Source of the DNA: Promethearchaeota archaeon
Lineage (GTDB): Archaea; Asgardarchaeota; Lokiarchaeia; Sigynarchaeales; SOKP01
DNA length: 50,948 nucleotides
Direction of reading: 5' to 3'
NCBI GenBank assembly: GCA_019894875.1
Contig: JAGXNR010000014.1
Span: 1 to 50,948, forward strand
The notes beneath the pieces were generated by a model. That model saw only the letters and a program-made list of their open reading frames with translations. It ran no database searches and was not told where the DNA came from. Positions within the stretch are counted from its first letter, which is position 1; each line of letters starts with the position of its first letter. Shown here piece by piece: positions 9,132 to 25,319 of this stretch. The translations under genes and the position numbers were made by a program.

Positions 9132-10136
9132 TTAAATTTCTTCAATTTTTTTAATAACTATTTTTCCCTGTTCATTTGTTTCTAACAATCCAACCCCTTC
9201 CAGTTGCTGAGTAATTTTTTTCACGGTTACTATAGGGGATCCAAGAGCATTTCTAAGATCCTCTAATGTTATCGCTCCTACTTCATCAACAATTAGGAAT
9301 GCCTTAAAAAGTGTTTCTTTTTCCATCAATGGTTTTAATTTATCAAAATGATATATTTTAGCTATGTTTTCTTGCTGAAATCTTTTAATTTCTTCAAAAT
9401 TTTTTGTTAAACGTTCTATTTCGTCATTAGCAGTCCTATTTTTGTCATTTAGTTCTCCAACTTTCTTAATCAATTCTTCATATTTACCTTGCATACTTTC
9501 CATTCTAGAAATTGCATCTTTCGCATCAGAATCTAATTCCGTGGATTGTAACTTTCTTTCTAATAAGGTCGTTTCCAATCTGCTAATTTCTGCTTTTAAT
9601 TCTTGTGATTCTATTCGACGTTTATCTTCTAATTGGGATATTAATTTCACTTGTTCTTCCTTGAATTTATCTGTGAATGCTTGCAGTTCCTCAATTTTGT
9701 TACTCAAGTTTTTCACTGCTTCGTTTTTTAAAAGTAGTTCTGAAGTTTTTTCAGCTATTTCAGCTCTTAGATTTCCAACTGTCTCATATGATTCTTCTAA
9801 TTTACGTTGAGCGGGGATAATCTGCTTTTTTACTAATTCAAGTTCTTTCTGTGATTGAGCTACTTCCCCTTTTGTGTATTCTAACTCAAGTTCTCTCTCA
9901 TTAAGTTGTTGTCTTTGTGCACCAATTAGTTCTTTTAGTTCTAAAATATCCTCGGGAATATCACTCATTTTTGAGATTTTAGCTTTCTGTTCCTCAACTA
10001 TTACTTCCTGTTCACTAATAATTCTTTTTTGACGCTCCACTAATGATGATAATTTATCCACTTTAGATTGTAAAATAGCTGTTTGCTTTTCGCTTGATTC
10101 AATGTTGTCTAACATATCTCTTAAATCTTTAGGCAT
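9132..10136 (-). CDS. Long coiled-coil protein with C-terminal winged helix
   Basis: 334 residues. Residues 10-250 are almost unbroken heptad-type sequence rich in Glu, Lys, Leu and Gln (for example LSSLVERQKRIISEQEVIVE), so a long rod is expected. The last 70 residues (KAFLIVDEVGAITLEDLRNAL ... GLLETNEQGKIVIKK) form a winged-helix domain like those in DNA-binding regulators. No membrane helix or signal is seen. It may be a structural or chromatin-associated protein; no named family is recognised. Confidence 0.72.
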   Translation of the reverse strand: MPKDLRDMLDNIESSEKQTAILQSKVDKLSSLVERQKRIISEQEVIVEEQKAKISKMSDIPEDILELKELIGAQRQQLNERELELEYTKGEVAQSQKELELVKKQIIPAQRKLEESYETVGNLRAEIAEKTSELLLKNEAVKNLSNKIEELQAFTDKFKEEQVKLISQLEDKRRIESQELKAEISRLETTLLERKLQSTELDSDAKDAISRMESMQGKYEELIKKVGELNDKNRTANDEIERLTKNFEEIKRFQQENIAKIYHFDKLKPLMEKETLFKAFLIVDEVGAITLEDLRNALGSPIVTVKKITQQLEGVGLLETNEQGKIVIKKIEEI

Positions 10137-15225: not shown

Positions 15226-15957
15226 ATGTCGTACCGTATAATAGTAGATTTATCTCATAAGGAGAAAATTGAAGAATTTCCCGAGTTCACATTAGGAGAA
15301 GACGATTATGAAATCGACTACATTGATAAAAATGAAGGTCCGATTGAGTTCGAAACACTTGAAGATTTTGACATACTATTTTTAGGAAACATTCAACACA
15401 CTTCAAAAGGGAAGGATGACAAGTTCACACAAGATGAATTGAAAGTAATAAAAAAATTTGTTGGGGAAGGAGGAAGTATATTCTTAACTAGCGGAGATGG
15501 AGGGGATAAAGACATCCCAATGAAACAAGGTTCTATCAGAGTCTTATATAAGGTAACTGGTGTTCGTAGGTTTTGGAATGGAATAATTCAAGAAGCTCCA
15601 TCGAATTTTTTAGTTAAAAAGAAAAACGTTTTAATTACCGAGTTATTTAATCATCCAATAACTGAGGGGATTTCGGAATTAGTCTTACCAAATAGCACTT
15701 TTTTAACGATTTCAGAGGAAGATGTCGACGATATAATTGTAACTTCAGAGAAAGCAGAATTTAAATATTATCTTGATGACGATACTGGAGCACTCGGACC
15801 CGTACCGATTTGTGCGGTTTCCAGTTTTTATGAGGGTAGATGTGTAACGATTGGCTCATCTGATTGGTTAACTGAAGATGGTGATTTTGGTCTTGATGCA
15901 GGTGACAATTTAAAATTTCTATCAAATATTATTGAATGGTTATCTTTTGAAAGATAG
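15226..15957 (+). CDS. GATase-like (GIFT/DUF4350-type) domain protein
   Basis: 243 residues with no membrane segment. The fold looks like the class I amidotransferase-like domain: DFDILFLGN, then LKVIKKFVGEGGSIFLTSGDGGD, the strand-turn of this fold, and a C-terminal CVTIGSSDWLTEDG then DNLKFLSNIIEWL. No catalytic Cys-His pair is visible, so it is probably not an active glutaminase. The same type of domain (GIFT) forms the N-terminus of the eukaryotic ciliary protein IFT52, and prokaryotic relatives are uncharacterised. It is 26 nt upstream of a radical SAM gene on the same strand, so the two may be co-transcribed. Confidence 0.6.
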   Translation: MSYRIIVDLSHKEKIEEFPEFTLGEDDYEIDYIDKNEGPIEFETLEDFDILFLGNIQHTSKGKDDKFTQDELKVIKKFVGEGGSIFLTSGDGGDKDIPMKQGSIRVLYKVTGVRRFWNGIIQEAPSNFLVKKKNVLITELFNHPITEGISELVLPNSTFLTISEEDVDDIIVTSEKAEFKYYLDDDTGALGPVPICAVSSFYEGRCVTIGSSDWLTEDGDFGLDAGDNLKFLSNIIEWLSFER

Positions 15958-18314: not shown

Positions 18315-19283
18315 TTAAGTTACCTTTATTTCTGTAATAAGTTCCTGTTTTTTCTTTTCCTTTTCTTTTTTGTATTGCCTTCTTCTCTTAGTATATTTAG
18401 CTTTCTTTTGCTGGAATTCTAATTTTCTTTTCGGAGATATTCCCTTCTTCTTTAAATATTCTTTTTTTGCTGCTTTATATTCTTTTTTTGCTTTATTGTA
18501 CTGCTTTTTAGATTTTTTATACTTTTTGTATCTCTGTTTTATCTCATGTCTTAGATCCTTACTGATTTCTCCTATTCCTAGTTCATTTAATTTTCTTTTG
18601 AAATCTTCAAAAGATTCAAACCTAATAACAATAATCCCCAACTCTCTAGCCGGAACTAAATTTTGAATTTTGTCGTCAATAAAGACACATCTTTTTGGTT
18701 TCGTTTCTAATTTATTTATTACATATTTGTATTTTTCCATATCAGGCTTAATATAACCAATTTCATTTGATAAGAATACATTATCAAAATTGTCATAAAA
18801 TCCTCTCAAATTATTTGATCTAGCATGTATATCATGGGTGTTTGACATTAAACTTACTGTATATCCTGCTTGATGTAAACGTTCAATAATTTCTGCCATT
18901 TCTACGGACAAATGAGTAACTTGAGAATATAAATCGAACCATAATTCTAAGTAATATTCCACATTTACTTTTTTCGATGGTAAGCTTCCCACTTTTTTCT
19001 GAAATGGATAATAAAATTGTTCCAATATTCTTTCTAAAAATTCACGAGATGTTATTCTTCCTGAACTTAATTTTCGTTTAAATTTCCTTATGTAAGAATT
19101 TTCTAAACGAGGAATAGAAACATTCAGATCCGCTTCAATCATATCAAGTAAATTTTTTAACACAAAGGTTTTTTCAATTAAAACACCACCAAAATCGAAA
19201 AGAAAGTGTTTTATTTTATATAATCTAACCTTTTGTTTTTTTCCATAGATTTTGGAATTTTCTATATCTTCTCGATTACTCAT
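18315..19283 (-). CDS. HAD-superfamily hydrolase with a basic C-terminal tail
   Basis: 322 residues from ATG 19283; an in-frame TTG at 19289 is less likely. HAD motifs are in order: FDFGGVLIEK (motif I; the second Asp is replaced by Gly), LMSNTHDI (motif II), the Lys in GYIKPDMEKYKY (motif III) and FIDDKIQNL (motif IV). The nearest type is the epoxide hydrolase/phosphatase-like subfamily, many members of which start DFGGV. The last 75 residues are extremely rich in Lys and Tyr and probably form a long basic helix. The gene is on the same strand as the two ATP-grasp genes of the inositol block, 29 nt downstream of one, so it may dephosphorylate a product made there. That link is inference. Confidence 0.82.
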   Translation of the reverse strand: MSNREDIENSKIYGKKQKVRLYKIKHFLFDFGGVLIEKTFVLKNLLDMIEADLNVSIPRLENSYIRKFKRKLSSGRITSREFLERILEQFYYPFQKKVGSLPSKKVNVEYYLELWFDLYSQVTHLSVEMAEIIERLHQAGYTVSLMSNTHDIHARSNNLRGFYDNFDNVFLSNEIGYIKPDMEKYKYVINKLETKPKRCVFIDDKIQNLVPARELGIIVIRFESFEDFKRKLNELGIGEISKDLRHEIKQRYKKYKKSKKQYNKAKKEYKAAKKEYLKKKGISPKRKLEFQQKKAKYTKRRRQYKKEKEKKKQELITEIKVT

Positions 19284-19312
19284 CTTCAAACCTATTTTGT
19301 GAAAAATTGTTT

Positions 19313-20113
19313 TTAATTTTTTATTTTATCTTTCAGTTTCTCAACTTGATGTAATATTAAATTACAAATTTCTTCAACCGGGGAACCACTACATTTCCAA
19401 TTTGTAAATTCGGGGAATGAGCCTGGATCAACTATATATAAATCTTTAGTAGATTCGTCTCTTACTATATCCAAATGCCCAAATAAATTGTTATCAGCAA
19501 GTAATGTTCTCCATTTCTTAATCAATTGCTCAATATCCTTGGGTGTTTTTACTTTTTCCATATCAAGATGCTCATTAGACAAGGGAGGTTTAATAAGCGT
19601 ACAGATATGATCATCTATAAAATAAACATTATAATGTATACCTTTAATGAAATTTTCTAGGTATAGAATTTTATTACCTTCAGATTTTAACTCTTGAATA
19701 GAATTGATTATCTTTACTCCTCTGCTTCCCGAGCCAACAACTGGTTTTAAAATTAAAGGAAAAATGTCTGGCTTTAATTGATCGATGAGGGTTCCTGAGG
19801 TGCCACAATAAAATTTTGGCGTTAAAAGGCCAGCTTTTTCTATTAGAAAGTGAGAATGTATTCGATTCTTTTGCATGAAAGTACTATGAGGATTCGGAAC
19901 AACGGGGATATCGTTTGCTTCTAAAAAGAATCCCGCATAAAGAAAAAAAAGACTTTTTGATTTTAGGATATAAAAATCATTTCTAAAAAGAGTCTCATTA
20001 ATAATTAGATTCTCCATAGTATAAATAACTACATTAAATCCCTTGTCTTCATAGTATCGTTTCATTTTTCCTGTTAACATTGTTGTTCTCTTTGATAAAA
20101 TTCCGATATTCAT
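19313..20113 (-). CDS. ATP-grasp enzyme (RimK/ITPK-like), divergent metal site
   Basis: 266 residues. The central and C-terminal parts fit ATP-grasp: FPLILKPVVGSGSRGVKII (glycine-rich ATP loop with Lys), ILYLENFIKG and LFGHLDIVRDE. The last Mg-binding motif reads YIVDPGSFPEF, where active members have Asp-x-Asn; the Asn position is Gly, so metal binding may be altered. Substrate is unknown: RimK-like ligases join an amino acid to a carboxyl, while ITPK-like members phosphorylate inositol phosphates. It sits 13 nt downstream of another ATP-grasp gene and 29 nt upstream of a HAD gene, all in the same direction. Confidence 0.75.
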   Translation of the reverse strand: MNIGILSKRTTMLTGKMKRYYEDKGFNVVIYTMENLIINETLFRNDFYILKSKSLFFLYAGFFLEANDIPVVPNPHSTFMQKNRIHSHFLIEKAGLLTPKFYCGTSGTLIDQLKPDIFPLILKPVVGSGSRGVKIINSIQELKSEGNKILYLENFIKGIHYNVYFIDDHICTLIKPPLSNEHLDMEKVKTPKDIEQLIKKWRTLLADNNLFGHLDIVRDESTKDLYIVDPGSFPEFTNWKCSGSPVEEICNLILHQVEKLKDKIKN

Positions 20114-20126
20114 TTTCTTTTCTCCG

Positions 20127-20945
20127 CTAATTTTTTGCTTGTTCTAATAAATAGTCAGCCACAATTTTATATCCATTTTTCATATAATTAAAATTAGGGG
20201 TACAATTTATATCTGTTAAAAAAAATTGGTTATCTTGAGATTTATGAAAGTCAAGGGAAGTAATTTTTATATCCATAATGTCCATAGCTTTTAAGCAATA
20301 TTCTTTTAATTCTGAAATTTCTTCTATTTTTTGCCTTGATTTTGTTTTATCAGGATTTACCAAAATTGGTAATTGTTTATAGAAATATACATCTTCACCT
20401 ATTCCATAGATTTTATACTCCCATTTACTTTTAATAAATTTCTGATAATAAAGAAAGTTGTATTGATGTTCCTTTCCATCAACTTCATCCATTGCTCTTT
20501 TATCCGCAACTCTTATATTTCCCTTTTCTTTAATTATTATTGGTGAGAATTTATAATTTCCCTGATCAACAATGTTTTTAATTATGAAATCTTTAAAAGG
20601 GGGTAATATTCCCTTTGGATTTAATGAAAAATCTGGTACGGGAATACCTGCTTTTCTTAAGTATGTACTATTTAGGAACCTGTTAATCGCTAGCTGAATT
20701 GCTTTAAAACCATTTATTATAGGGATATTAGTATGCTCCTCAATAAGTTTCACTAAACCTAAAATTAAATCACCCTTTCCCTTAGTAAAAAATAAGTCTT
20801 CATCAAAATTGTGATTCGAACTAATTAAAAGGTAGGATTCCTCCACGTATAATTTAACTTTTGCAATTGATTTTAGATATTTTAAGAAGTCTGCAACTTT
20901 ATAATTCAGATGATATTTATCAATTATTATCCCAATTTTTTTCAC
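20127..20945 (-). CDS. ATP-grasp enzyme, possibly a kinase or ligase
   Basis: 272 residues. The N-terminal part is an alpha/beta pre-ATP-grasp domain (KKIGIIIDKYHLNYKVADFL). The C-terminal half holds SPIIIKEK, YYQKFIKSKWEYKIYGIG, SLDFHKSQDNQFFLTDINCTPNF, with the metal-binding Asp and Asn in DIN. This resembles ITPK and RimK-type enzymes. It is the first gene of a three-gene minus-strand unit with the next ATP-grasp and the HAD genes. The 258-nt gap to the divergent ITPK-like gene contains AT-rich promoter-like sequence. Substrate assignment is uncertain. Confidence 0.72.
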   Translation of the reverse strand: MKKIGIIIDKYHLNYKVADFLKYLKSIAKVKLYVEESYLLISSNHNFDEDLFFTKGKGDLILGLVKLIEEHTNIPIINGFKAIQLAINRFLNSTYLRKAGIPVPDFSLNPKGILPPFKDFIIKNIVDQGNYKFSPIIIKEKGNIRVADKRAMDEVDGKEHQYNFLYYQKFIKSKWEYKIYGIGEDVYFYKQLPILVNPDKTKSRQKIEEISELKEYCLKAMDIMDIKITSLDFHKSQDNQFFLTDINCTPNFNYMKNGYKIVADYLLEQAKN

Positions 20946-21148
20946 AAAAATTCCCCTGTGTATCTTAAATCAAGCTTATATTTCTTTTTCTCCAATATAA
21001 ATCATAAAATATTTATTCAATTTAAATAAAATCAAAAAAACATTGAAATCAATCTTATTAAGTCTCTAATAATAGATTATAATAATTAATATACTAAAAA
21101 CCATCTTAATTTTAGGAGATAATAAATAAGCTCTTCACTCATAATCAA

Positions 21149-21161
21149 TATATTTATATAC
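21149..21161 (+). promoter_or_regulatory. TATA-like box upstream of the ITPK-like gene
   Basis: TATATTTATATAC lies 43 nt before the GTG start at 21204. It is the best TATA match in this divergent region; no clear BRE is seen. Confidence 0.35.
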
Positions 21162-21203
21162 CATAATTTATACATAGATTATCAAAAAAATAGGGTTTTT
21201 AGA

Positions 21204-22112
21204 GTGTCAAGTAAACTCAACAGAATTTATGTTGGCGCGATTTGTAATAGAGATCTCGAAATTTTTAAGGAGATAAGAAATTTCTGTAACAAGAACTATA
21301 ATATCTCAATCATCAATCTTTTGAAAAAAGATTCTAATTCTTTTACTGCGAAATATTTGAAAAAAAAATTGAAAAAATATCCTATTTCATTATTTATTGT
21401 TAAATTATTTTCAGAAAAAAAAAATCAGAACATCTATAATATACTAAGAGATGTTGCTCCTAATATCCCCTGGTTAAATAGTTTTGAATCCGTAAAATTA
21501 TGTGAAAGTAGATCAGGAACTTTTAAGTTGATTGATCAAAAACATAATAAACTACATATTCCAAAAATTTACTCCTCTCTTCAAGAGGCTATAGATGCCT
21601 GTATCAATGGGACTGCAATTATTATTAAACAAGATACTCATAATATCCCAAACTTACCTAAAAATGATAGAGTTATTGGAATTGCTAGATCTCCTGAGCA
21701 ATTAAAGAAATTTGTCAAGAACCATCAAGAAAATCCCTTATTTTTCCAAAACTACCTAGGAGAATTTGATCTCATCTATAAAGTGTATGTGATAGATAGA
21801 TGGGTGGGTTCGATTACATCACACAATCGGCTCCACCAAAAGCAGAATTTATCTCCTTTGGATTTAATACACATTCGTGTACCAATTGAAAAGAAGTTAA
21901 AAAGAAGAATATTACGATTAGGACGCAGAACAGGGATGTTAATTTTTGGGGTGGATTATATTCTAACAGAAGATAAGACACCTTATATTATTGATGTTAA
22001 TGATTTTCCAAGTTTTAGAAGTATTCCTGAAGCTGTGAGTCTAATCTCTGATTATATCTATAACGTTACTATTATTCAACAAGTACGATTAAAAACTCCT
22101 GCAACGGTTTAA
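21204..22112 (+). CDS. ITPK-like ATP-grasp inositol phosphate kinase (putative)
   Basis: 302 residues from GTG 21204. The C-terminal half matches the inositol 1,3,4-trisphosphate 5/6-kinase / ITPK1 family pattern: NGTAIIIKQDTHN (ATP-binding Lys), FFQNYLGEFDLIYKVYVIDRWVG (the family's FKVYVIG region) and FGVDYILTEDKTPYIIDVNDFPSF (metal-binding Asp and Asn, as in ITPK IDINxFPG). ITPK1 phosphorylates inositol 3-phosphate and higher inositol phosphates with ATP; a Lokiarchaeal homologue was reported before. It ends 39 nt from the convergent INO1 gene, which makes inositol 3-phosphate. Confidence is good for ATP-grasp, moderate for the substrate. Confidence 0.72.
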   Translation: MSSKLNRIYVGAICNRDLEIFKEIRNFCNKNYNISIINLLKKDSNSFTAKYLKKKLKKYPISLFIVKLFSEKKNQNIYNILRDVAPNIPWLNSFESVKLCESRSGTFKLIDQKHNKLHIPKIYSSLQEAIDACINGTAIIIKQDTHNIPNLPKNDRVIGIARSPEQLKKFVKNHQENPLFFQNYLGEFDLIYKVYVIDRWVGSITSHNRLHQKQNLSPLDLIHIRVPIEKKLKRRILRLGRRTGMLIFGVDYILTEDKTPYIIDVNDFPSFRSIPEAVSLISDYIYNVTIIQQVRLKTPATV

Positions 22113-22151
22113 GTGTAAAAAAACTAATAAACAAGAGTTTTAACTTTCAAT

Positions 22152-23243
22152 TTATCTTTCTTTTTTATTTTCTATAAATTCTAAAAGAGCTTTCTTTGCA
22201 ATATAATCCTCCAATTGCTCAGGTGGATGTTTCATGAAAAATGAGCAGGCAGATTGTATTACACCTCCAATTTTTCTATCTTTTGCTATTTTCGAAACTC
22301 GAATACAATCTGCTATAATCCCTGCAGAATTATTACCATCTTCCACAAACATAGTAATATCTACTCGAACTGGTGCACCCCCAAAAATTCTTCCTTCTAG
22401 TCTCATATATGCTTCTTTTTGATTCTTTAGGAATGGAATGTAATCTACCGCAGAAATTTGGCATTCCACTGTATCTTTGTTTGGTAGATTAGCGATAACC
22501 GCTTCAGTTTTTGATTGACGTTTTCCCTGCTCATACCTTAACTCACCATTTGGCATAGGGGTTAATAAATTGGCGAAATCACTACATCCTCCCCAATCTA
22601 ATTGTATAGTTTTATCTAAAATCGCACCTCTCATGGGAAAAAGATTAGCTAAAGATCTATGTATTATTGTTGCTCCTACTTGTGATTTAACATCATCTCC
22701 TATAAGTGAAAGATTCTGAGCCTCTGCTTTTTTAACAATCTCTGGATCATGAACAACTGGAGATGGCATCCCATTAATTATACACGCTCCAGCTTCGAGA
22801 GCGGCTAAAGTGTAATATTTCACGGCTTTATGGCTTCCGGTAGGGAGTAGTATTACCGCCACATCTACATCTCTTACTTTCATTTCTTTTGAAACATCAA
22901 CATCAACTTGCTTTTCAGAAACAGGGATCATATTTTTTATATTACTATCTAATCCATCTAACACAGGTCCCTTTAGTACTGGAGCGTTTAAAAATTCTGG
23001 TTGATAAAGTTTCATATTACAATTTGGTTCTGAAAAAATAGCTTCGCTTAGATCTTTTCCAACCTTGTTCGAGTTAACGTCAAAACCAACAACAAAATTA
23101 ATATCATTAATATCGTACGGGGTTATTTCTGGGAGTAACCCGATAATTTTTTCGGGATTTCTTTTATAATTCTCAGAACCTTGCACTAATGCACATGCAA
23201 CATCCCCAATTCCGATTAATGCTACATTAATTTTATTAGCCAT
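22152..23243 (-). CDS. ino1: Inositol-3-phosphate synthase
   Basis: 363 residues, the length of the archaeal/actinobacterial type of MIPS. It shows the NAD-binding start IGIGDVACALVQGSENYKRN, NGMPSPVVHDPEIVKKAE, GDDVKSQVGATIIHRSL (the signature of the family) and LDWGGCSDFANLL (the usual LNVGGNTD). The enzyme converts glucose 6-phosphate to 1L-myo-inositol 3-phosphate, the precursor of inositol lipids and soluble inositol phosphates. It is flanked on both sides by ITPK-like ATP-grasp genes: one convergent 39 nt away, one divergent across a 227-nt promoter region. A TATA-like AT stretch is present just upstream of the start. Confidence 0.9.
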   Translation of the reverse strand: MANKINVALIGIGDVACALVQGSENYKRNPEKIIGLLPEITPYDINDINFVVGFDVNSNKVGKDLSEAIFSEPNCNMKLYQPEFLNAPVLKGPVLDGLDSNIKNMIPVSEKQVDVDVSKEMKVRDVDVAVILLPTGSHKAVKYYTLAALEAGACIINGMPSPVVHDPEIVKKAEAQNLSLIGDDVKSQVGATIIHRSLANLFPMRGAILDKTIQLDWGGCSDFANLLTPMPNGELRYEQGKRQSKTEAVIANLPNKDTVECQISAVDYIPFLKNQKEAYMRLEGRIFGGAPVRVDITMFVEDGNNSAGIIADCIRVSKIAKDRKIGGVIQSACSFFMKHPPEQLEDYIAKKALLEFIENKKER

Positions 23244-23410
23244 GTTATTGTTTATATAAAATTATAATATTTAAATCATTTTAATATAAGGTATTGAATT
23301 TTCGTATTTAGTGTATTCAAAACTAAATTTTTGTGATCTTAGAGAAAAAATTTTAAGTTATATGAAACTAATTCTTATAGTTGTTATCAACTCATAACTT
23401 TGATATAAGC

Positions 23411-23444
23411 TTCTTAAATGCATTGAACTAATTAAATTTAAGAA
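23411..23444. promoter_or_regulatory. Inverted repeat ahead of the second ITPK-like gene
   Basis: TTCTTAAAT (23411-23419) and ATTTAAGAA (23436-23444) are perfect 9-bp inverted copies separated by 16 nt, ending 26 nt before ATG 23471. This spacing would place it across the basal promoter, so it could be an operator. The AT-rich context makes chance possible. Confidence 0.4.
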
Positions 23445-23470
23445 CATAAACTACTTTTTGATTGATAATC

Positions 23471-24367
23471 ATGGTAAAAAAAAAAATATTTTTCTCAGTA
23501 ATTCAAGATCATAATGTTATTAAAGAAGTTATAAATAGCCTTCAACTAGCCAATACAATTGATTTGGTACATCATGATCCCACTATAGACTTCTTCTGTC
23601 TTTCGGATATGAATCAATCTTTAAAAGATGCAGATCTTATTGTTGTAAAGGTTAGAAATGAATGTTCAATTGATTTATTACACTATGCTAAACTCTATAA
23701 TTTGCCAACTCTTCATGATGTAGAGACAGTTTTACTATGTAAAAATAAAATCGCTCTTGATTATTCATTACGGAAGGTATTAGAAAGACACAAAACTACT
23801 TTGGGAAAGTTCCTAATGCCTAATTCATGGAATCATTCTTTGTCAGATGTAAGTACATTTAAGGAATGGGCTTTACCTAAATTGCCGATTGTTATTAAAA
23901 GTCATTATCAACATGATAAATATAACAGATTTAACTTTCTTGTTCAAAAAATTGAGGATGTAGATAAATTCTGTGAAATGTATAAAAAGTTCCTCTCTTA
24001 TGATGTATATATTCAAAAATTCATTGAATGTGATGGATATGAAGTGAAAATATATGTAATTGGAGATAAAGTTTTTGGAATAAAAAGAGAGAATCCAATT
24101 TATATTTATTTGAGAGAAAAACCAGATAATATTGATGTGAGTACTATAGAACGAGATCAAATTGAAATCACTGAAGAGATCAAGCAATTCTCAAAAATCT
24201 TATCAACTGAATTAAATCTTAAGATTTTTGGATTTGATCTAGTACGCTCTCTGGAAAATGATAAATACTATATCATTGATTTAAATGATTTTCCAAGTTT
24301 TAGAGGTATTCCTAATATTGCAAAGGAATTAAAAAAGTACATTGAAAACTATGTACTAAATGACTAA
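23471..24367 (+). CDS. ITPK-like ATP-grasp inositol phosphate kinase (putative), second copy
   Basis: 298 residues from ATG 23471; a TTG at 23462 is also in frame. It shares the layout of the ITPK-like gene at 21.2 kb: LPIVIKSHYQHD (ATP Lys), VYIQKFIECDGYEVKIYVIGDKVFGIKRE (FKVYVIG region) and FGFDLVRSLENDKYYIIDLNDFPSFRG (Asp-x-Asn metal site). The substrate-binding N-terminal region has HDPTIDFFCLSD and HDVETVLLCKNKIAL. The two proteins are related but diverged, which fits different positions phosphorylated on the inositol ring. It is divergent from INO1 and ends 4 nt from the convergent uppP gene. Confidence 0.72.
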   Translation: MVKKKIFFSVIQDHNVIKEVINSLQLANTIDLVHHDPTIDFFCLSDMNQSLKDADLIVVKVRNECSIDLLHYAKLYNLPTLHDVETVLLCKNKIALDYSLRKVLERHKTTLGKFLMPNSWNHSLSDVSTFKEWALPKLPIVIKSHYQHDKYNRFNFLVQKIEDVDKFCEMYKKFLSYDVYIQKFIECDGYEVKIYVIGDKVFGIKRENPIYIYLREKPDNIDVSTIERDQIEITEEIKQFSKILSTELNLKIFGFDLVRSLENDKYYIIDLNDFPSFRGIPNIAKELKKYIENYVLND

Positions 24368-24371
24368 ACGA

Positions 24372-25319
24372 CTAAGCGAATACTAGAAAAGGTACGATTA
24401 TTAAAAAAGCTACAATCCCATATAAAATGCAAAAATATCCAAAATTAATCTTCTTAGCTAATTTAATTAAAAAATCAATTGTTATATAGCCTACAATAAA
24501 ACTTACAATGGTTGTAATTAGAATAGTGAGAATGCCTAAAGTCCCTAAAATTGAACCTTCACTTAACACAATATCAACTAATATAGAGGCAATTGCAACA
24601 GGGACAGACATTAAAAAACTTAATCTGAGCGCATCATCTTGATCGTATTTTTCCAATAAAATCGTACCCACAGTGATACCAGAACGAGATATTCCTGGTA
24701 ATATCGAAACTCCTTGAATTAAACCTGATAAAAAACTATCTTTTTGTATACTCTTCTTAGAAGTATCCACTATTTTCCTATTGCCAAAAATTCTCCTTGT
24801 CACAATTAGTATTACTCCAGTAATGATTAATAAACCAGAAATTAAGAGTGTAATTACATCTCCTTGAAAAGCAGTGAAAAAATCTAAAAATATAATTTTA
24901 AATAAGATATAGAGGGGAATAGCCGTAATAACCGTACCTAATGTAGCCCAAATTATCCAATTTCTTTTCCTAATAATAGTATCATCAAATACAGAATCTT
25001 TTTGAACTAATGATTTTAGAATAATAATAAAATCTTTTCTAAATCTTACCATAACAGCAATAGTTGTCCCTAAGTGTAACCATATGGCAAGACTATAAGC
25101 ATTCTCAGGTGAGATACCAAAGAAGTACGTAGATACAATCATAGTCTGCCCCGATGATGAGATGGGGAGCCATTCAGTAAATCCTTGAAGGATGGCTATA
25201 AATAAAAATTGTAGTGGAACTCTAAAAAGTAGTACTAATAGAATTATAGATAATACTATAAGAGCTTCAATAAGTAACCAGAGCTTCTTGGCATTCATTT
25301 CATTTGAACCCAAACACAA
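24372..25319 (-). CDS. uppP: Undecaprenyl/polyprenyl-diphosphate phosphatase (UppP/BacA family)
   Basis: 315 residues with about eight membrane helices. Both signature regions are present: QGFTEWLPISSSGQTMIV (about 40) and SILPGISRSGITVGTILL (about 205), with the catalytic Glu, Ser and Arg residues. The enzyme removes a phosphate from C55 or similar isoprenyl diphosphate at the membrane, recycling the lipid carrier used in glycan and glycoprotein assembly. In an archaeon it would act on dolichyl or polyprenyl diphosphate for N-glycosylation. It is convergent with the ITPK-like gene. A short loop between TM4 and TM6 is charged. Confidence 0.87.
   Translation of the reverse strand: MCLGSNEMNAKKLWLLIEALIVLSIILLVLLFRVPLQFLFIAILQGFTEWLPISSSGQTMIVSTYFFGISPENAYSLAIWLHLGTTIAVMVRFRKDFIIILKSLVQKDSVFDDTIIRKRNWIIWATLGTVITAIPLYILFKIIFLDFFTAFQGDVITLLISGLLIITGVILIVTRRIFGNRKIVDTSKKSIQKDSFLSGLIQGVSILPGISRSGITVGTILLEKYDQDDALRLSFLMSVPVAIASILVDIVLSEGSILGTLGILTILITTIVSFIVGYITIDFLIKLAKKINFGYFCILYGIVAFLIIVPFLVFA

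Follow-up and report, generated by a model that had tools for sequence, protein, structure and literature searches.

Introduction

Inositol polyphosphate signalling has long been treated as a eukaryotic trait. The closest described system is the soluble route of animals and plants, in which INO1 (ISYNA1) forms inositol 3-phosphate, Ins(3)P, for ITPK1; phosphorylation of Ins(3)P by human and plant ITPK1 is stated in passages of PMC7356102 and PMC8024741. According to a passage of the review PMC7356102, ITPK1 homologues were reported from Lokiarchaeota in 2019, four in number, which have an ATP-grasp domain and whose inositol phosphate (InsP) site is more restricted. Described here is a gene block in a 50,948-nucleotide stretch of DNA (the window) from a Promethearchaeota archaeon of the Lokiarchaeia (assembly GCA_019894875.1, contig JAGXNR010000014.1), in which a gene for inositol-3-phosphate synthase (INO1) is flanked by genes for four ATP-grasp-like proteins, named AG1 to AG4. 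The block is real and conserved in Lokiarchaeia beyond chance, and its most likely role is that of a predicted soluble module of inositol phosphate kinases fed by INO1.

The block resembles the animal and plant route in that AG3 and AG4 match the ITPK family PF05770 and have INO1 next door. It differs in that synthase and candidate kinases are genomically linked. The kinase domain of PPIP5K/Vip1/Asp1 is tied with RimK/LysX in fold, but the short AG proteins have no phosphatase domain. The RimK/LysX/ArgX/MptN ligases share the common fold, and the AG1 and AG2 profiles are nearer to these. In contrast, AG2, AG3 and AG4 carry K/K/D in place of the ligase residues R/R/E, and the AG proteins give 14–39 bits against the RimK family model TIGR00768 (AG1 33.1, AG2 34.2, AG3 14.4, AG4 39.3), all failing the cut-off of 143.4 bits, which is exceeded in 8 of 10 Asgard genomes searched.

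To what that passage says of the Lokiarchaeota homologues, the analysis adds how the genes are ordered in many genomes, the distinct clade of INO1, and evidence that two of the four proteins are not clearly ITPKs. A preliminary description of the window had considered the linkage of several kinases with the synthase to be less described. The four Lokiarchaeota homologues were already on record according to the passage in PMC7356102, but no description of an INO1-kinase linkage was found in the literature searched, the 2019 PNAS primary paper lying outside its scope. Overall the block is of greater interest for its INO1 than first seen, less certain in two of the four "kinases", and in part known. 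It makes a prokaryotic soluble InsP route testable by naming the proteins and their likely substrate, and lineages that have AG4 but no block can serve as a control. Lokiarchaeia are archaea related to eukaryotes, and a proposed ancient lipid-free inositol phosphate route becomes directly testable.

Gene order and conservation of the block

The genes of the block in the window, followed by its two neighbours, are as follows.

AG1: 19313–20113, minus strand, 266 amino acids (aa); generic ATP-grasp protein with DxG instead of DxN
AG2: 20127–20945, minus strand, 272 aa; divergent ATP-grasp protein with K/K/D residues
AG3: 21204–22112, plus strand, 302 aa; ITPK-like ATP-grasp protein
INO1: 22152–23243, minus strand, 363 aa; inositol-3-phosphate synthase, member of a divergent clade specific to the block
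AG4: 23471–24367, plus strand, 298 aa from the ATG at 23471; ITPK-like ATP-grasp protein, the most ITPK-like of the four
HAD-IA phosphatase-like gene: 18315–19289, minus strand, the same as AG1; PF00702 at 58.5 bits, Lys-rich C-terminal tail, accessory
BacA: 24372–25319, minus strand; neighbour beyond AG4

The preliminary description had placed INO1 between the ATP-grasp genes AG3 and AG4, with AG2 and AG1 beyond, and open reading frames are indeed found there; the HAD gene follows AG1 as it had said, slightly outside its span of 19313–24367. All four AG genes are ATP-grasp-like, although no Pfam family matches the window AG2 above its cut-off. An in-frame TTG at 23462 is an alternative start for AG4. 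AG3 and INO1 are separated by 39 bp, and AG1 and AG2, on the same strand, by 13 bp. The block consists of more than one operon: HAD, AG1 and AG2 point the same way, the pairs AG2/AG3 and INO1/AG4 diverge, and AG3/INO1 and AG4/BacA are convergent.

A contig scan with the window INO1 gave 50 loci, 42 from Lokiarchaeota/Lokiarchaeia (76–87% identity) and 8 others (37–40%). By tblastn and open reading frame calling, the 42 loci contain AG3 in 41, AG2 in 38, AG1 in 36, AG4 in 35 and HAD in 26, counts that include genes cut by contig ends. The sole block INO1 without AG3 is L017, the contig of which ends after INO1. The same procedure found neither AG1–AG4 nor HAD neighbours in any of the 8 other loci, which belong to three Deltaproteobacteria, one Myxococcales and four Methanosarcinales/ANME. 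The gene order is uniform in nearly all Lokiarchaeota loci that reach far enough, with insertions in some. Exceptions are L042, where AG4 is ~11 kb away, and L006 (genome G002, CP070831.1, 12270–13216, chromosome-level), where AG2 is shortened to 154 aa, with AG3, INO1 and AG4 kept. AG1 was not found anywhere in G002, nor was the FKBP side found at the locus; a rearrangement or an assembly fault may explain the broken synteny.

A survey of profile matches in 227 genomes of the Asgard phylum showed INO1 in 205. AG4 orthologues (E ≤ 7.5e-63) are found in 49 genomes, with partial ones in 3 more. An AG3 orthologue is present in 44; two of these are fragments, and that of G088 is distant. AG2 is present in 45 (two partial, and the distant G088 one, included) and AG1 in 43, partial ones counted; among these 43, AG2 is found in 42 and AG3 in 40. 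The physical linkage of INO1 with a kinase-like gene, claimed earlier for the one window, recurs in most AG3-bearing genomes of the survey: AG3 lies 23–85 bp from INO1 in 38 of the 44 AG3-bearing genomes, gaps being measured between profile-match edges, not gene ends, and the 38 genomes representing one lineage, not 38 independent events. As for the other six, the gap is 3.4 and 3.9 kb in G132 and G147, the genes are on two contigs in G134 and unlinked in G088, and the INO1 position was not recorded in G148 and G128; AG3 and INO1 are adjacent in L038, a candidate counterpart of G128.

A separate clade of INO1

The window INO1 matches PF01658 with 72.5 bits (cut-off 27) and PF07994 with 26.0 bits (cut-off 25). 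With TIGR03450 it gives E = 4.5e-88 and 295.8 bits over its full length; as this is below the cut-off of 638, the protein is related to that equivalog but is not a member. The comparison set was 33 non-block Asgard INO1 loci, second copies from block-bearing genomes included. The main INO1 of each shows 37–42% identity to the block INO1, tandem extra copies in three of the loci show 31–34%, and another short piece, in L153, shows 46%. Seventeen block INO1s form a single clade with a Shimodaira-Hasegawa-like approximate likelihood ratio test (SH-aLRT) value of 100, in a 61-row tree made by a quick method. The motif SAVDYIPFxKNQK is present in 39 of the 42 block INO1s, while SAVDYIPF occurs in 0/33 of the other Asgard loci, 12 of which have GPSDY(V/I/T). 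With this difference in motif, the product of the block enzyme, Ins(3)P in all likelihood, is a prediction. That the block INO1s form their own clade and travel with AG3 fits the proposed pathway.

Tandem INO1-like genes are seen in L042 (7617–11089) and also in L138, L142 and L146. These genes include a very divergent INO1-like group, with 31–34% identity to the window INO1, that falls on one branch side with SH-aLRT 100.

AG3 and AG4 match the ITPK family

The AG3 and AG4 of the window give 26.4 and 44.3 bits with PF05770 (cut-off 23) and both pass. A Pfam tally of 22 orthologues per AG protein, picked from those at hand (E ≤ 0.01), shows PF05770 in all 22 AG3 and all 22 AG4 sequences. In PDB profile searches, the top 10 of 14 AG3 matches are ITPK chains, as are the top 9 and the 11th of 13 AG4 matches, the 10th being Vip1; one protein accounts for several of the ITPK chains, as constructs or mutants. 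PF05770 has two matches in each of 4 Loki genomes, both within the block, and 0/14 in control genomes. A reading of four ITPK-like kinases stands for AG3 and AG4 but not for AG1 and AG2, where PF05770 is found in only 7 and 2 of the 22 orthologues, respectively.

Diagnostic residues (human ITPK1 numbering) were read from one joint MAFFT alignment, in which column 167 is unsure; the alignment and tree rows (13 AG1, 14 AG2, 14 AG3, 18 AG4) were chosen from 35–41 orthologues plus outgroup loci. Positions K59/K199/D295 read K/K/D in ITPK (8/8), AG4 (18/18), AG3 (14/14) and AG2 (14/14), and R/R/E in Asgard RimK-family proteins (13/13). Like ITPK1, AG4 also keeps R212, D281 and N297 in all 18 sequences, and H162 and G301 in 15/18 each, the window AG4 having Ser at 301. 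D281 and N297 are likewise present in 14/14 AG3, and N297 in 14/14 AG2. AG1 has K at 59, then L/N/T, then D, and Gly replaces N297 in 13/13; D295 and N297 are presumably the metal-holding positions. Differences from ITPK1 are that the N-terminal domain PF17927 is not listed in the Pfam results for AG3 or AG4 and that K18 is unaligned.

H167, K199 and R212 are conserved near InsP contacts in human ITPK1, as stated in a passage of PMC12077091, a paper in which human ITPK1 was also used in PLC-null yeast mutants. Of the human positions given in that paper (K18, K59, H162, H167, K199, R212 and G301), AG4 retains the majority. These three positions are R/K/R in AG4 (18/18); R, K and S/A/C in AG3; gap, K and Q/E in AG2; and K/R/N, L/N/T and K in AG1. 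R212 is thus kept in AG4 and not in AG1–AG3.

A homologue search with AG4 gave 458 matches and one with human ITPK1 gave 794. Among the best 120 of each, the named AG4 matches are Asgard or metagenome sequences except for one Nanopelagicaceae bacterium, the named ITPK1 matches are vertebrates, and no bridge between the two groups was seen. The AG4 profile matched 0/7 non-Asgard INO1 genomes, a search that carried no positive control. LCGC14_1122880 (P0030, marine sediment metagenome) is an AG4 orthologue with 72% identity and the UniRef name "Inositol 1,3,4-trisphos..."; automatic annotation therefore already points to ITPK. The published Lokiarchaeota ITPK1 homologues, reportedly from Desfougeres et al. 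(2019, PNAS), are thus probably these genes, LCGC14 being, we assume, the data set of Loki's Castle.

Origin of the block

AG4 occurs without AG1–AG3 orthologues in 12 of the 49 AG4 genomes. One of these, G149, is probably incomplete, since its AG4 is of the block type and lies at the edge of a contig, and INO1 has no match there. The remaining 11 genomes (G097–G101, G105, G106, G153–G156) are divergent and lack the block. In ten AG4 loci from these genomes INO1 and AG1–AG3 are absent from every locus, FKBP is found on 8/10 and BacA on 6/10, two of the loci starting at a contig edge close to AG4; FKBP, AG4 and BacA are directly contiguous in L084 and L089. Because related lineages hold AG4 in place without INO1 and AG1–AG3, AG4 appears older than the block. 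AG4 beside FKBP and BacA looks ancestral, and INO1-AG3-AG2-AG1(-HAD) inserted later or jointly lost elsewhere.

The Promethearchaeota archaeon CR_4 (G088) has an adjacent convergent AG3-AG2 pair (L098, 8703–10347) with 31–32% identity to the window. Its AG3 has six near relatives at 66–82% besides itself. An AG4-like protein of CR_4 (L097, ~9560–9859) displays K59, H167, K199, R212, D281, D295, N297 and G301. Distant AG4-like proteins in L095 and L096 (G089 and G090) keep K199, D295, N297 and G301 but not K59 or R212; L096, but not L095, has His at 167, and INO1 was not found in either genome.

Proposed pathway and alternatives

We propose that the block is a Lokiarchaeia-specific inositol phosphate module, fed by INO1 and with AG4 and AG3 as kinases, a reading on which our confidence is evenly balanced. 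What is observed is the gene order and its conservation, the separate INO1 clade, the diagnostic residues, and the match of AG3 and AG4 to their family. Deduced from these sequences are what the enzymes act on, in which order and with which product, and what AG1 and AG2 do, as is the "stepwise kinase set" of the preliminary description. The dedicated INO1 isoform would convert glucose 6-phosphate to a monophosphate of inositol, with Ins(3)P the likeliest. AG4 would act first and AG3 second, their ATP-driven phosphorylation giving inositol polyphosphates with no lipid intermediate. AG2 would probably be another small-molecule kinase that shares this type of catalysis, with a later or different substrate. 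AG1 is the least certain: it lies beside AG2, lacks one presumed metal ligand, and may be an altered kinase, a ligase or a regulatory partner. A more extended version seems doubtful to us, namely a complete lipid-independent pathway in which a neofunctionalised INO1 would feed three or four diverged, stepwise ATP-grasp kinases, INO1-AG3-AG2-AG1 having been added beside an older ITPK-like AG4; such a pathway would have preceded the eukaryotic ITPK/PPIP5K network or run parallel to it.

Several results weigh against the proposed module. AG3 lacks R212, and R replaces H167 in both AG3 and AG4. The RimK Pfam family also matches 17/22 AG4 and 6/22 AG3 orthologues, and the best NCBIfam match of AG2, AG3 and AG4 is MptN (47.3, 31.0 and 42.5 bits; cut-off 350). 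In hhalign comparisons with an Asgard RimK profile (n = 13) and a narrow ITPK profile (six vertebrates and two plants), AG4 and AG3 are no farther from RimK than from ITPK, and AG2 and AG1 are closer to RimK: 115–130 versus 103–104 for ITPK with AG4, 89–92 versus 80–85 with AG3, 120–126 versus 23–33 with AG2, and 116–120 versus 61–65 with AG1. Among the block proteins, AG3-AG4 gives 163–169 and AG4-AG2 gives 117–119. Predicted models of AG2 and AG4 (pLDDT 82.7 and 91.2) are both ATP-grasp folds, and the fold comparison ties kinases and ligases, with LysX, ArgX, ITPK1, PPIP5K and RimK within one Z unit for AG4. In an 82-protein tree (AG4like_L097 left out) each AG group is on one branch side with bootstrap 100, but support along the backbone is low, and the program warned that long branches meet. 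The phylogeny, proposed as a check in the preliminary description, puts AG3, AG4 and AG4-like proteins on the side of ITPK and AG1 and AG2 on that of RimK, with a support of 93/77. Approximately unbiased (AU) tests did not reject AG2 with the kinases (p 0.18), AG2+AG3+AG4 (p 0.33) or all four together (p 0.17). Fold, tree and profile comparisons do not decide between kinase and ligase. Weighing against the module in addition are the 11 genomes with AG4 and no block, the CR_4 AG3-AG2 pair, which has no INO1 within the 19.5 kb examined, and the lack of a credible IPK-family kinase, the one match in the 227 Asgard genomes being weak and having 3 internal stops, compared with 1/14 in the control. 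SPX domains were found in 0/227 Asgard genomes, the control being equally silent and the result hence uninformative.

It is possible, though rather less probable than the proposed module, that AG4 and AG3 alone are inositol phosphate kinases and that AG1 and AG2 are RimK/LysX-like amino-acid or peptide ligases, unrelated neighbours. Neither AG1 nor AG2 of the window matches PF05770 at E ≤ 1. AG2 orthologues match the RimK Pfam family in 15/22 and D-Ala ligase in 10/22, AG1 orthologues match ATP-grasp_3 in 22/22, and the best NCBIfam match of AG1 is LysX_arch (35.8 bits, cut-off 275.6). ArgX (3vpb) is the first PDB profile match of both, a weak one, with ITPKs weaker still, and the hhalign values and tree side given above agree with ligases. 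In G002, moreover, AG3, INO1 and AG4 are kept with AG2 cut and AG1 not found. Against the ligase identity stand the near coincidence of AG1 and AG2 genomes with AG3 genomes, the recurrence of the AG3-AG2 pair in CR_4, and the K/K/D residues of AG2 where 13/13 Asgard RimKs have R/R/E; and of 11 extra matches of the AG2 profile in block-bearing genomes, 8 are the block AG4 or AG3, 1 is a second AG2 and 2 are other proteins. AG1 and AG2 are not clearly ITPKs by their sequences, and "four ITPK-like kinases" is overstated; AG2 retains the K/K/D residues, and AG1 part of them, despite a non-ITPK Pfam profile. Unlikely, in our judgement, is that INO1 serves archaetidylinositol membrane lipids, that the ATP-grasp genes act elsewhere, and that the neighbourhood is conserved synteny only. 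INO1 is present in 205/227 Asgard genomes, mostly without these kinases, and related lineages have AG4 in this position but no INO1 beside it. The whole region (~14 genes queried) is syntenic in Lokiarchaeia, with proteasome beta, ThuA-like, radical SAM and FKBP genes on one side and BacA and low-molecular-weight phosphatase on the other; because the flanking genes are syntenic too, synteny within Lokiarchaeia alone is no proof of a functional link. A point against the module is that, of 43 genomes with the block (not counting G088), 27 have a single INO1 match, which may therefore serve lipid synthesis too; in 26 of these it is the block INO1 (the G134 copy is on a contig also holding AG4, and the G148 position was not recorded). 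Lipid use is opposed by the distinct clade of the block INO1, which accompanies AG3 apart from the general Asgard INO1, and weakly by a CDP-alcohol phosphotransferase motif found in 0/42 block loci but also in only 2/20 other INO1 loci, the scan being too crude for excluding lipid use.

Inserted and flanking genes

Nine open reading frames inserted in the block were classified by Pfam: two INO1-like proteins, two MFS transporters, and one each of a zinc dehydrogenase, a solute-binding protein and a histidine kinase; the remaining two encode large proteins (941 and 793 aa) with no Pfam match. In L012 (4533–9791) an MFS transporter, a zinc dehydrogenase and a ~940–950-aa protein with no Pfam match are inserted beside AG4; the same set, judged by eye alone, is beside AG4 in L092 (9912–15211).

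An Rfam scan of the window showed two tRNAs and nothing else. The long Lys-rich C-terminal tail of the HAD-like protein (18315–19289) could bind a polyanion. The syntenic open reading frame at 15226–15957, which we take to be ThuA-like, matches the IFT52 GIFT domain PF23355 with 29.2 bits (cut-off 27.2).

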